DNA from: Novosphingobium organovorum
Lineage (GTDB): Bacteria; Pseudomonadota; Alphaproteobacteria; Sphingomonadales; Sphingomonadaceae
DNA: 64,000 nt
Assembly (NCBI RefSeq): GCF_022832435.1
Contig: NZ_JALHLF010000001.1
Span: forward strand, 39,020 to 103,019
Direction: 5' to 3'
A program made the position numbers and the translations under genes. Under the pieces are notes generated by a model. It did no database searches. It saw nothing but the letters and a program-made list of their open reading frames with translations, and was not told where the DNA came from. This document shows, piece by piece, positions 20,415-25,000 of this stretch (its first letter is position 1; every line of letters begins with the position of its first letter).

Positions 20415-20888
20415 TCACAGGTTCTGCGCGCCCCACAGCCGGTCCTGTTCGACAAAGCCCTTGTGCCCTGCGACCTCGAAAGCGCACCAGCCCTTGTCGC
20501 ATTCGCCGAGCAGGCCCACCACACCCGGTTCCACCTTCCACAGCACGGGGGAGCCGCTGGCGCCCGCCTGATGCATCTCGACCAGACCGTCGGCGCGCAC
20601 CATCGCGCCGCGCTGGCGCGAGAGCAGAACGTCCCGAATCCACCCGCGCGCACCGTCGGGGTCCTCGACCTGACGCCAGGGGCCTTCGCGGCGAAGGACC
20701 TTCACCGGCAGGTGGAGCCGCCGATAGACCCAGTCGATCCGGAAGGTGTTGCCCGGCCCTACGCGCATGTTGGCAACGTCGGTATCGATCGACGCCCAGT
20801 AAGGAACCTTGTCCTCGTCGGCCGAGAACGCCGGAGATCCGATGAGCGCCAGGCCAAGGGCCGCCGCAAGGAAGTATCTGCACCGCAT
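20415..20888 (-). CDS. Exported SH3-like domain protein
   Basis: This 157-residue protein has an N-terminal signal peptide (MRCRYFLAAALGLALIGSPAFSA) and then bacterial SH3-like repeats: NMRVGPGNTFRIDWVYRR with GPWRQVEDPDGARGWI, and a second half VEMHQAGASGSPVLWKVEPGVVGLLGEC with WCAFEVAGHKGFV. Such domains (SH3_4/DUF1058 type) are thought to bind cell-wall or protein ligands in the periplasm. It is divergent from the 2-hydroxyacid dehydrogenase gene 83 bases away; this pairing is familiar in sphingomonads. Confidence 0.85.
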   Translation of the reverse strand: MRCRYFLAAALGLALIGSPAFSADEDKVPYWASIDTDVANMRVGPGNTFRIDWVYRRLHLPVKVLRREGPWRQVEDPDGARGWIRDVLLSRQRGAMVRADGLVEMHQAGASGSPVLWKVEPGVVGLLGECDKGWCAFEVAGHKGFVEQDRLWGAQNL

Positions 20889-20971: not shown

Positions 20972-21985
20972 ATGTCCAACACGAACGCTTCCACTCAGGA
21001 TCGCCCGGACCGCGTCCGCCCGCGCGTCGTCGTGACCCGGCGCCTGCCCGCTGGCGTCGAAAGCCGCATGAGCGAGCTGTTCGACACCGTGTTCAACCCG
21101 AGCGACACTCCGATGAGCCGCGAGGCGCTCCGCGCCGCGCTGGCGGCCTGCGACGTGCTGGTCCCCACGGTGACCGACACGATCGATCGCGACCTGCTTG
21201 AAAGCGCGGGACAACGTCTTGGTCTCATCGCCAATTTCGGCGCCGGGACCGAGCATATCGACCTGCGGGCCGCGCGTGAGCGGCATATCCTGGTGACCAA
21301 CACGCCGGGCGTGTTCACCGACGATACCGCCGACCTCGCCTTCGCGCTGCTGATCCTGGCCATGCGCCGCTTCGTGCCCGGCGCCCGCGCGCTTCTCGAT
21401 GGCGCCTGGCAAGGCTGGGCGCCGACCGCGATGCTCGGGCAGAGCCTGGCGGGCAAGACGCTGGCGATCGTGGGGATGGGGCGAATCGGGCAGGCCGTCG
21501 CACACCGCGCGCGCGCGTTCGGGATGCGCGTCCATTACCACAACCGCCATCGCCTGCCGCAAGCGCTCGAGAACATCCTCTCGGCGCATTACGAGCCCGA
21601 TCTGGAGCGGCTGTTCGCGACCGCCGACGCGCTTACCTTGCATTGCCCACTGGCCGCCTCCACGCGCCATCTGGTGAACGCTGAACGTCTTGCGCTGATG
21701 AAGCCGAGCGCGTGCATCATCAACACCGGACGCGGCGATCTGGTGGACGAGGAGGCGCTGGTCGCCGCGCTCGAGACCGGGCGGATCGCAGGCGCCGGGC
21801 TCGACGTCTTCGCGCACGAACCGAACATCGACCCGCGCCTTCTCGCCGCACCCAACCTCGTCGCCCTGCCCCACCTTGGCAGCGCGACTTTCGAGGGGCG
21901 CGAGACCGCGGGCGAAAAGATCATCGCGAACATCCGCTTCTGGGCCGATGGCCACCGCCCGCCCGATCAGGTCCTGCCCGAATAG
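20972..21985 (+). CDS. D-isomer-specific 2-hydroxyacid dehydrogenase (glyoxylate/hydroxypyruvate reductase-like)
   Basis: This 337-residue NAD(P)-dependent oxidoreductase reduces a 2-oxoacid, probably glyoxylate or hydroxypyruvate. The Rossmann motif is GMGRIGQAVA (168-177). The catalytic residues are R254 in NTGRGDLVDE, E283 in AHEPNID and H301 in LPHLGSAT. The first 16 residues are polar and may be shorter in vivo. The exact substrate cannot be told from these motifs. Confidence 0.92.
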   Translation: MSNTNASTQDRPDRVRPRVVVTRRLPAGVESRMSELFDTVFNPSDTPMSREALRAALAACDVLVPTVTDTIDRDLLESAGQRLGLIANFGAGTEHIDLRAARERHILVTNTPGVFTDDTADLAFALLILAMRRFVPGARALLDGAWQGWAPTAMLGQSLAGKTLAIVGMGRIGQAVAHRARAFGMRVHYHNRHRLPQALENILSAHYEPDLERLFATADALTLHCPLAASTRHLVNAERLALMKPSACIINTGRGDLVDEEALVAALETGRIAGAGLDVFAHEPNIDPRLLAAPNLVALPHLGSATFEGRETAGEKIIANIRFWADGHRPPDQVLPE

Positions 21986-22151: not shown

Positions 22152-23474
22152 ATGTCTAGCTGGTTTGGCCCGGTCCTGCGGCGCCCTCTTCGAACCTCTT
22201 TGGCGGTGCTTTTTATGGCGCTGGCGGCGATGGCCAGCCCGGCCTTCGCGCAGGACGGTGCGCTCGACCTGTCCGACGGGGGCGACACCGCCTGGGTGCT
22301 CGGCGCGACGTTGCTCGGTTTTCTCGCGACACTGCCCGGCCTCGTGCTGTTCACGCTGCCGCAGGCGCGCGGGCGCAACTACGCGACCTATCTCTATCAG
22401 TGCGGCGCGGTGGCGCTGCTGGCGTGCCTGCTGTGGATCGTAACCGGCTATACCCTCGCCTTCGGCACGGTCACGCATGGCTGGCTGGGCAGCGGTAACG
22501 CCTGGATGCTGATCGAGCTTGGCAATCTGCGCGCCGGGACCGGACTGCCCGAAAGCGCTTTCGTGCTGTGCGAGATGGCCTGCGCCGCGCTGGCTCCGAC
22601 GCTTGTCGTGGGCGCGCTCATCGGACGCGCGAACACCGCCTGGCTGCTGGTGTTCACCGGGTTGTGGTCACTCGTGGTCTACGCCCCGATCGCCCACTGG
22701 GTCTGGGGCGGAGGCTGGCTGGCCGCATCGGTCAGGGTCGAGGACTGGGGCGGGGGAATCGTGATCGAGACCACCGCCGGGCTCACCGCGCTCACGCTCG
22801 CCGCGATCATCGGCCCACGCCGCCAGCCGACGGCGGCCCCGGTGCCGCTCGGCGCGCTGCTCTCGCTGCTTGGCGCCTTCTTCTTCCTGATCGGGCGCAC
22901 CGCGCAAGGTGGCGCCCTCGCCCTCACCGCCAACGACGATGCGGCCGCGGCGATGATCGCGACCTTCGCGGCGGCGGCGAGCGGTGGCCTTACCTGCGTG
23001 CTCCTTGGCCATTGGGGGCCGCGCGGGTCGGGGCTGTTCCAACTGGGGCGCGGCATGATCGCGGGTCTTGCCGCCATCGCGCCCGCAGCGGGCCTGATAT
23101 CGCCCGGCGCGGCGATCGTGCTGGGCATTCTCGGCGCGCTCGCCGCGCGCGCGGCGGCGGGCATCCGGCGCAGCGGCACGATCGACGATGCGGGCGATGT
23201 CTTTGCGCTCTTTGCCACGGGTGGCATCGTCGGCACGCTGGCGCTCGGCCTGTTGCTCTCACCCGCGCTTGGCGGCGTGGGCTACGCCGCGCGCACGACG
23301 ATGACCGGCCAGGTCCTCGCCCAGGCCATCGGTCTTGCCGTCTGCGGTGTCTGGACGCTGTTCGGCACGGTCGTGCTGGCGACGATGACCTCGCTCGTCC
23401 TGCCCATGCGCGTTTCGCTCGAACGCGAGCAGGCCGGGCTCGATGCGCTGTCCGATCCCGGCCCGCAGGGCTGA
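22152..23474 (+). CDS. Divergent Amt/Mep-family membrane protein lacking both twin histidines
   Basis: This 440-residue protein has a probable signal peptide (to about residue 33) and about 11 membrane helices, as in AmtB ammonium channels. The Amt core is clear: YAPIAHWVWGGGWLA (W185 aligning with AmtB W148) and EDWGGGIVIETTAG (D198 aligning with D160). The two pore histidines are replaced: E206 at the H168 position and F354 at the H318 position (DDAGDVFALFATGG). Phe-gate residues also look changed. Fungal Mep1-type proteins have Glu at the first site, but loss of the second is unusual. It may conduct something else or sense ammonium. No glnK gene adjoins it. Confidence 0.8.
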   Translation: MSSWFGPVLRRPLRTSLAVLFMALAAMASPAFAQDGALDLSDGGDTAWVLGATLLGFLATLPGLVLFTLPQARGRNYATYLYQCGAVALLACLLWIVTGYTLAFGTVTHGWLGSGNAWMLIELGNLRAGTGLPESAFVLCEMACAALAPTLVVGALIGRANTAWLLVFTGLWSLVVYAPIAHWVWGGGWLAASVRVEDWGGGIVIETTAGLTALTLAAIIGPRRQPTAAPVPLGALLSLLGAFFFLIGRTAQGGALALTANDDAAAAMIATFAAAASGGLTCVLLGHWGPRGSGLFQLGRGMIAGLAAIAPAAGLISPGAAIVLGILGALAARAAAGIRRSGTIDDAGDVFALFATGGIVGTLALGLLLSPALGGVGYAARTTMTGQVLAQAIGLAVCGVWTLFGTVVLATMTSLVLPMRVSLEREQAGLDALSDPGPQG

Positions 23475-23593: not shown

Positions 23594-25000
23594 TCAGTCG
23601 CCGGTCAGGATGCGATCGACCAGTTCCTTCACCGTCGGCGTGAAGCCGTTCGAGTAGAACGGGTCCCGCTTGAAGTGATAGGCCGCGTGGCCTGCGAACA
23701 TGAGGTTGTCATCCACCGGGCCGCCGTGCGCGATGTCCTGCAACGTCTTCTGGATGCAGAAGCTGCGCGGATCGGCGAGCCGGCCGGTGGTGTAGTCGTC
23801 ATGGTCCTTCCACGAGGAGAACCCGCAGTGCGACAGGCAACCCATGCAGTCCGCCTGGTCCTTGCGGATCATGTCGCGCTCGGTCGGCGTGACGAAGACG
23901 ATCGTGTCGTCGGGCGTGCGCAGGCCATCGGTAAAGCCTTCGTAGGACCAGCCGCGCGCGCGCTCGAGGTCCTTGGGCGTTACCCAGAAGTTCTTGCCCT
24001 TGACGCCCACGTCGAGCTTCACGGTATGCTCGCCCGCTTCGACCTTCGAATAGGGAATCTGGCGGTCCGAGCGCGCCTCGAGGCTGCGCAGGAAAGGGTT
24101 GCGCACGGCCGAGGAGTAGAACCCCGTCGGCGAGAAACGGTGCAGCAGCACGTCGCCCGGTTCCAGATCGCGCAGCGCGTCCTTCCACGCCTGCGGGATC
24201 GGACTTTCCTTGGTGAGCAGCGGACGCGTGCCGTACTGGAAGGCGATCGAACCCAGTTCGGGGTTGTCGATCCAGTCTTCCCAGTCGCGCAGGTACCACA
24301 CGCCGCCGGCCATCACGATCGGCACCTCGTCCGAGATGCCTTCCTTGCGCATCACGTCGCGCAGCGCCTTGACGCGCGGAAACGGATCTTCGGGCTTGAG
24401 CGGGTCTTCCGCGTTCGACAGGCCATTGTGGCCGCCAGCCAGCCAGGGGTCCTCGTAGACCACCGCAGCCATGAGATCCGACACCTTGTGGTAGGCCCGC
24501 TTCCACAGCGCGCGGAAGGCGCGGCCCGAACTGACGATCGGCAGGTAGCTGACGTTGAAACGCGCCGCGATCTCGGACAGCTTGTAGGGCATGCCCGCGC
24601 CGCAGGTAACGCCCGTCACCATGCCACGCGTCTTGTCCAGCACGCCTTCAAGCACCTGCTGCGCGCCGCCCATTTCCCACAGCACGTTGATGTTGATCGC
24701 GCCCTTGCCGCTGGCGATGTCGTAGGCGCGGCGCACCTGCTCGACCGCGCCGTCGATGGCGTAGCGGATCAGTTCCTCGTGGCGCTCCTTGCGCGTGAGC
24801 GCGTTGTAGACCTGCGGTACGATCTTGCCTTCAGCATCGTAGCTGTCGGCGTTGACCGCGCTGACCGTGCCGATGCCGCCCGCCGCGGCCCATGCACCCG
24901 AACTCATATGATTGGTCGCCGAAACGCCCTTGCCGCCTTCGATAAGCGGCCAGACTTCGCGTCCACCATAGTTAATCGGCTTTAAACCCTTGAAACCCAT
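23594..25000 (-). CDS. Nitronate monooxygenase-like FMN oxidoreductase with C-terminal Cys cluster
   Basis: This 468-residue protein has the TIM-barrel features of the nitronate monooxygenase/2-nitropropane dioxygenase family: MSSGAWAAAGGIGTVSA near the N-terminus, TGVTCGAGMP, and the phosphate-binding IVMAGGVWYLRD at about 228-240. It is longer than the usual 320-380-residue enzyme. The extra C-terminal part holds C385, C388, C392 and C415 (CMGCLSHC, then C22 residues later), a spacing that could bind an iron-sulfur cluster. Function is inferred as an FMN-dependent oxidoreductase; the substrate is unknown. Confidence 0.82.
   Translation of the reverse strand: MGFKGLKPINYGGREVWPLIEGGKGVSATNHMSSGAWAAAGGIGTVSAVNADSYDAEGKIVPQVYNALTRKERHEELIRYAIDGAVEQVRRAYDIASGKGAININVLWEMGGAQQVLEGVLDKTRGMVTGVTCGAGMPYKLSEIAARFNVSYLPIVSSGRAFRALWKRAYHKVSDLMAAVVYEDPWLAGGHNGLSNAEDPLKPEDPFPRVKALRDVMRKEGISDEVPIVMAGGVWYLRDWEDWIDNPELGSIAFQYGTRPLLTKESPIPQAWKDALRDLEPGDVLLHRFSPTGFYSSAVRNPFLRSLEARSDRQIPYSKVEAGEHTVKLDVGVKGKNFWVTPKDLERARGWSYEGFTDGLRTPDDTIVFVTPTERDMIRKDQADCMGCLSHCGFSSWKDHDDYTTGRLADPRSFCIQKTLQDIAHGGPVDDNLMFAGHAAYHFKRDPFYSNGFTPTVKELVDRILTGD

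Follow-up and report, generated by a model that had tools for sequence, protein, structure and literature searches.

An Amt-like protein with a dismantled conduction pore in Novosphingobium organovorum, and repeated loss of the twin histidines among its orthologs

What becomes of an ammonium transporter when the residues that make its pore are replaced and the protein itself is kept? The question is raised by an Amt-like gene in a 64,000-nucleotide stretch of the genome of Novosphingobium organovorum (contig NZ_JALHLF010000001.1, positions 39,020 to 103,019), the whole of which we call the window. The twin-histidine motif of the pore is treated as a hallmark of the Amt family; the window protein has neither histidine, and losses of the motif have arisen repeatedly among its bacterial orthologs. 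Our answer, which we hold to be a little better than evenly probable, is that the window protein is a conduction-dead Amt: one that would have kept its fold, would no longer carry ammonium, and would be retained for a role other than transport. The features on which the argument turns are as follows.

22152..23474, + strand: Amt-like gene with a dismantled conduction pore, 440 amino acids (open reading frame call, Pfam, AlphaFold model, structure match)
22152..22253, + strand: probable signal peptide, residues 1-34, ending ..ASPAFAQ (judged by eye from the translation)
22581..22583, + strand: C144, at the place of AmtB F107 in the Phe gate (alignment)
22704..22706, + strand: W185, equivalent of AmtB W148, kept (alignment)
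22743..22745, + strand: D198, equivalent of AmtB D160, kept, as D160 is in 248/248 orthologs (alignment)
22767..22769, + strand: E206, at the place of AmtB H168, the first twin histidine (alignment)
22896..22898, + strand: R249, at the place of AmtB W212 in the S2 site (alignment)
22905..22907, + strand: Q252, at the place of AmtB F215 in the Phe gate (alignment)
22917..22919, + strand: L256, at the place of AmtB S219 in the S1 site (alignment)
23049..23051, + strand: R300, at the place of AmtB S263 (alignment)
23211..23213, + strand: F354, at the place of AmtB H318, the second twin histidine (alignment)

The reading frame starts with ATG at 22152 and its stop codon ends at 23474, on the + strand. 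Its 440-residue product matches PF00909 at 5.5e-60 (203.6 bits against a cut-off of 23.2) and E. coli AmtB (2nuu) at 5.7e-47; PF00909 is the sole Pfam domain, and no signalling domain of the Ks-Amt5 type is fused to it. An AlphaFold model built on 24 aligned sequences (mean predicted local distance difference test, pLDDT, 85.2; predicted template modelling score, pTM, 0.85) finds its closest solved structures in E. coli AmtB: Foldseek matched 2ns1 at a template modelling score of 0.84 (on the query), and realignment to the same structure gave Z 57.8 with a root-mean-square deviation of 1.9 over 394 residues. As modelled, the window protein has the ordinary fold of the Amt/Mep/Rh superfamily. 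A signal peptide, such as the one it probably carries, is also present in E. coli AmtB. Its score with TIGR00836, the NCBI subfamily model, is a different matter, reaching 222.1 against a cut-off of 343.3: of five orthologs scanned, two with an intact gate pass (L115, 396.4; L122, 388.3) and three without it fail (L086, 328.7; L109, 267.6; L110, 255.1), and the paralog encoded in the same genome, P0002, passes with 414.5.

It is within this fold that the pore has been taken apart. Pore residues were numbered by E. coli AmtB (row L113), aligned with the window protein and its relatives; both twin-histidine positions align without gaps and are flanked by conserved motifs (DFAGGTVVHINAA / DWGGGIVIETTAG and VDDPCDVFGVHGV / IDDAGDVFALFAT). 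A preliminary description of the gene had placed E206 and F354 at H168 and H318, and had held that the fold and the equivalents of W148 and D160 remain. The alignment bears out the former, and the retained residues are W185 and D198; the kept fold is borne out by the model and its structural matches. Changes beyond those that it listed are F107C, F215Q, W212R, S219L, S263R and Q104E (E141 in the window protein), S263 being a position that we take to line the pore. In AmtB the Phe gate comprises F107 and F215, and the S2 site is outlined by F215, W212 and H168 (PMC10433425). Because all of these are replaced, gate, S2 site and twin histidines are altered together. Of the marks of a functional transporter, the window protein has neither the histidine pair (E206, F354) nor the Phe gate (C144, Q252); of the Mep1/3 type – Glu at the first histidine with the second histidine kept – it has the Glu, the second position being Phe.

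The likely consequences can be gauged from engineered AmtB. Neither H168A/H318A nor F215A alone gives growth of yeast on ammonium, and among 14 engineered twin-histidine variants methylammonium was carried by H168E only (PMC3647058); H168A/H318A binds ammonium without transporting it (PMC7447429). Single and acidic twin-histidine variants leak K+ (PMC9040831, PMC7447429), and H168E passes high ammonium currents (PMC9040831). Since the window protein combines H168E and H318F with a lost gate, conduction of ammonium is unlikely and has probably gone. The loss of normal conduction that was predicted at the outset is, then, probable, by analogy with AmtB variants that fail in yeast and in which the sites carry other letters than those found here.

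The window protein is not alone in these changes. A search of 195 genomes of the genus gave a match in at least 192. The genus set has 178 rows, of which 175, counting that of the window, come from the genus and three (L006-L008) are named contigs. Among named organisms the closest relatives belong to Novosphingobium, and some of their contigs are identical to genus rows. From a search of 199 genomes of the family 72 places were fetched, two of them genus repeats that were left out, which adds 70 rows from other Sphingomonadaceae genera and brings the full set to 248 orthologs; family places with weaker matches, and weak genus places whose resemblance was to the paralog alone, were set aside. 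In the genus set 132 rows have F215, all of them with both histidines; 46 lack F215 (hereafter the altered rows), 31 lack at least one twin-histidine residue and 27 lack both. The full set has the same pattern. All 185 rows with F215 carry the histidine pair (HH), and the 63 rows without it divide into 34 that lack at least one histidine (29 lacking both), 28 that are still HH and one that is gapped. Twin-histidine loss accordingly stands at 0/185 gate-intact rows against 34/62 gate-lost rows scorable at both sites. Since 28 gate-lost rows are still HH, and the histidines are lost only where F215 is missing, an order in which the gate went first is suggested.

What replaces the histidines is diverse: the non-HH pairs seen at 168/318 are FA, EF, GF, HN, AF, NQ, FP, LF, FG, FF, DQ, NH, FS, HQ, RN and QS. 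Other pore positions have gone as well, S219 in 40 and F107 in 39 of the 63 altered rows, and K or R stands at column 263 in 16 of the 34 histidine-losing rows, in 7 of the 28 altered rows that are HH and in 1 of the 185 intact rows. Controls are uniform: HH and F215 are kept in 72/72 more distant relatives and in 18/18 second Amt copies from the genus, 15 of these 18 being a sample of the second copies in genomes that have an altered copy at the locus.

Nor do the losses trace to a single event. We counted the fewest losses, with no regain allowed, on two trees, one of the flanking proteins (218 rows) and one of Amt without its pore columns (248 rows): on these, respectively, H168 was lost 9 and 8 times and H318 14 and 11 times, and D160 was lost on neither. 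In a site-mixture tree built without pore columns (82 rows: 43 altered, 39 intact) the altered rows form two separate groups. Forcing the H168-losing rows into one clade gave, in the approximately unbiased (AU) test, p-AU 3.6e-77 for Amt without pore columns (27 of the 82 rows) and 9.9e-5 for the flanking genes (25 of 79 rows); the test presumes groups named before the tree, and the groups here, defined by residue, were named after the trees had been seen. The phylogeny that the preliminary description had called for, in order to see whether this is a distinct clade, thus rejects a single origin of H168 loss on both kinds of data, and rules out both one distinct clade and one protein only.

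How might such a protein come about? We suggest that the Amt at its locus – which lies between genes for an SH3-domain protein and a D-2-hydroxyacid dehydrogenase (HADH) on one side and a nitronate-monooxygenase-like protein (NMO) on the other – was made redundant by another Amt of the genome, one linked to PII. The first change would have fallen on the Phe-gate residue F215, mostly to Leu, and would have ended conduction; without F215 the twin histidines, F107, W212 and S219 would have become dispensable, to be swapped repeatedly and independently, with constraint persisting on D160 and on a large part of the periplasmic side. What selection keeps would then be the fold, and perhaps a periplasm-facing function or a contact with a partner. 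Such a protein may still form trimers, and could serve as a receptor, or as a partner in regulation or structure. A wider claim, which we think unlikely and offer tentatively, is that an Amt of the Sphingomonadaceae has repeatedly become a conduction-dead membrane protein in parallel with human Rh30, one that works as a subunit, regulatory or structural, or as a receptor facing the periplasm; the switch that freed the twin histidines would be the loss of F215.

A critical issue is whether the altered gene is being kept or merely lost slowly. Slow decay of a redundant gene – a second Amt unneeded, its pore drifting, the gene heading for loss without a new role – is a serious possibility, if an unlikely one. 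Omega is raised in the altered groups: six of these (37 of the 46 altered genus-set rows) give 0.150, 0.107, 0.101, 0.094, 0.079 and 0.046, the window's own group of five giving the 0.150, and four intact groups (42 of the 132 rows) give 0.073, 0.049, 0.046 and 0.043. Pairwise medians are 0.107 for altered (4 usable close pairs) versus 0.035 for intact genes (31 pairs; Mann-Whitney p 0.005). Decay would also fit the variety of the histidine replacements (E, F, G, A, N, D, L, R, Q, P, S), the canonical state of every second copy sampled (18/18), and the many among the 199 family genomes that have one Amt match, among the matches listed, so that the gene is often absent there. Yet values of 0.05-0.15 are far below 1; among the matches listed, none of the altered genus rows is given an in-frame stop; 25 columns remain near-invariant in the altered rows, and D160 is kept in 63/63; and the long branches suggest long persistence. 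The altered genes are relaxed yet clearly constrained, and are under purifying selection. As a separate observation, two of the family matches listed carry one in-frame TAA each: a twin-histidine copy (L280, genome G347) and an F/G copy (L330, genome G262).

The relaxation is unevenly spread over the protein. With helices taken from the model, and with an N-out topology that we presume, altered rows exceed intact ones in entropy by +0.07 in the periplasmic loops; along the helices the gain is +0.45 in the outer third, +0.85 in the middle third and +0.93 in the inner, and it reaches +1.08 in the cytoplasmic loops and tail. Columns that are near-invariant in intact rows have, in altered rows, mean entropies of 0.54 (periplasmic loops), 0.88 (outer), 1.38 (middle), 1.34 (inner) and 1.32 (cytoplasmic). 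Among such columns relaxation has reached 7/8 at key pore positions against 55/117 elsewhere (Fisher p 0.03).

Several results nonetheless tell against a conduction-dead Amt retained for another role. The two trees disagree on how often F215 was lost, with 20 losses on that of the flanking proteins and 2 on that of Amt, and a first simple tree (FastTree, pore columns included) gathered the altered genus rows, all 46 of them, into a single clade, an arrangement of which long branches may be the cause. Omega in the altered genes is roughly 2-3 times that of intact orthologs, which relaxed selection explains too. The periplasmic loops of intact rows are already variable (mean entropy 1.49), so that their gain meets a partial ceiling, and the ratio of inner to outer omega shifts weakly, from 0.78-0.88 in the four intact groups to 0.83-1.41 in the six altered ones, two of which are unshifted. 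The S1 site is itself partly dismantled (losses of S219 and F107), which disfavours a receptor using the normal S1 site. Finally, neither the neighbourhood comparison nor the inspection of 12 altered loci turned up a gene that accompanies the altered form, and nothing consistent was found in those 12 loci as a partner gene downstream of Amt.

Rather than dead, the pore might have been rebuilt, its more polar lining conducting some other solute: a cation such as K+, an anion, or a small molecule without charge. We regard this new selectivity as improbable. It draws on E206, Q252, R249, R300 and E141, which occupy pore or near-pore columns (some of them pore-lining, as we presume), and on the K+ leak of the AmtB variants described above. 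The replacements, however, share no single chemistry; K or R at column 263 in 16 of the 34 histidine-losing rows disfavours cations as a common theme, and the K+ specificity that had been proposed among other outcomes is for that reason not favoured; F354 at the place of H318 could narrow the pore; and AmtB H168A/H318A binds ammonium without carrying it (PMC7447429).

Continued conduction of ammonium by a route like that of Mep1/Mep3, with Glu at the first histidine position, is very improbable: the high currents of AmtB H168E and the natural Glu of the fungal proteins lend it some colour (PMC3647058, PMC9040831), but against it stand the replacement of the second histidine and of the two Phe-gate residues, the inactivity of F215A by itself in yeast (PMC3647058), and the A or G, not E, of the nearest altered relatives (L114, L120, L128, L129). 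An assembly or alignment artefact is scarcely credible, the alignment being ungapped between conserved motifs and the 34 of 248 orthologs without at least one twin histidine being too many for chance or sequencing error.

Three conserved neighbours mark the locus of the Amt gene.

20415..20888, - strand: SH3-domain protein gene, conserved neighbour (domain scan, neighbourhood comparison)
20972..21985, + strand: D-2-hydroxyacid dehydrogenase (HADH) gene, conserved upstream neighbour (domain scan, neighbourhood comparison)
23594..25000, - strand: nitronate-monooxygenase-like (NMO) gene, conserved downstream neighbour (domain scan, neighbourhood comparison)

In the 178 genus-set rows SH3 lies beside Amt in 154, HADH in 146 and NMO in 132; in 13 the fetched stretch contains none of the three. 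Because the order SH3-HADH-Amt-NMO is common to twin-histidine and altered copies, most altered copies are taken to be orthologs at the old place, and for the same reason horizontal arrival of the altered Amt is not favoured; nine altered F/A, F/P or F/S rows are without the downstream NMO. A plasmid copy was also considered and rejected: 83 plasmid records match, none over more than 80% of the query. Twin-histidine orthologs with no SH3-HADH-NMO neighbours in the fetched stretch are L181, L246, L159, L160, L167-L170, L173 and L175-L178, and in one genome (G006) the copy at the locus (L110) is pore-altered and a twin-histidine copy lies elsewhere (L181). Among the matches listed the NMO-like neighbour (23594-25000) is 77-93% identical to the window copy, the adjacent Amt about 38-55%. 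In two F/A-pore genomes (L188, L197) a membrane-protein-like open reading frame of 156 amino acids, DUF805-like by eye, begins inside the Amt stop codon, which suggests translational coupling.

There is no PII match anywhere in the 64-kb window when the genome's own GlnK is the query, so the initial remark that no glnK adjoins the gene is true; the absence is not tied to the loss of the pore, since glnK is found in the fetched stretch of 0/248 orthologs, altered or twin-histidine (stretches of 2.4-13 kb, median 6.2 kb). A PII gene lies beside other Amt copies of the genus at 19/20 fetched loci, and beside 37/72 of the more distant relatives. In the window genome the other Amt (P0002, in L264) keeps its twin histidines and is flanked by two PII genes (PF00543, 8.8e-31 and 2.3e-27): ammonium uptake is therefore covered. 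Upstream of the orthologs, an NtrC/sigma-54-like site with a score of at least 9 occurs in 17/184 intact rows versus 6/184 shuffles, and in 2/63 altered rows versus 1/63 shuffles.

The relevant passage of a paper from 2020 gives Glu for the first histidine in fungal Mep proteins as the sole natural variation of the twin histidines (PMC7447429), and our search of the open-access literature, which could overlook an account in a subscription journal, turned up no report of twin-histidine loss in bacteria. With only the fungal change named, repeated loss in bacteria looks new. The losses are natural replicates for testing the role of gate and histidines, and for asking whether an Amt whose pore is dead can serve some other function; they are also a warning that annotations as "ammonium transporter" can be wrong.

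Among known systems, fungal Mep1/Mep3 resemble the window protein in that a natural Glu replaces the first histidine, as E206 does (PMC3647058, PMC9040831); they are ammonium transporters for which the passages cited name the first histidine alone as changed, whereas in the window protein the second is changed as well, to Phe, and the Phe gate is gone. Ks-Amt5 offers an Amt fold that serves sensing with its path likely closed (PMC5764959), and the sensor Amts Ks-Amt5 and Sd-Amt1 match the window model at Z 52.7-54.6; Ks-Amt5, however, keeps twin histidines, Phe gate and W/S site and has a fused kinase, in contrast to a protein that consists of PF00909 only. The engineered AmtB variants H168E (2now) and H318F (2npg), both named in PMC3647058, carry the very substitutions that the window protein joins, each of which can be read in its alignment with the chain concerned, but are laboratory single mutants with the gate intact, where the window protein is natural, double and without its gate. 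E. coli AmtB itself, representing the assimilatory Amts (PF00909, TIGR00836), shares the fold and the kept W148 and D160; unlike it, the window protein is without both histidines, both Phe-gate residues, W212 and S219, and has no glnK nearby. The best functional parallel, and the nearest precedent, is human Rh30 (RhCE, RhD), which likewise is not known to have the twin histidines. Rh30 proteins belong to animals; for an Rh30-like pairing in Novosphingobium the conducting paralog would be the canonical Amt that the window genome encodes.
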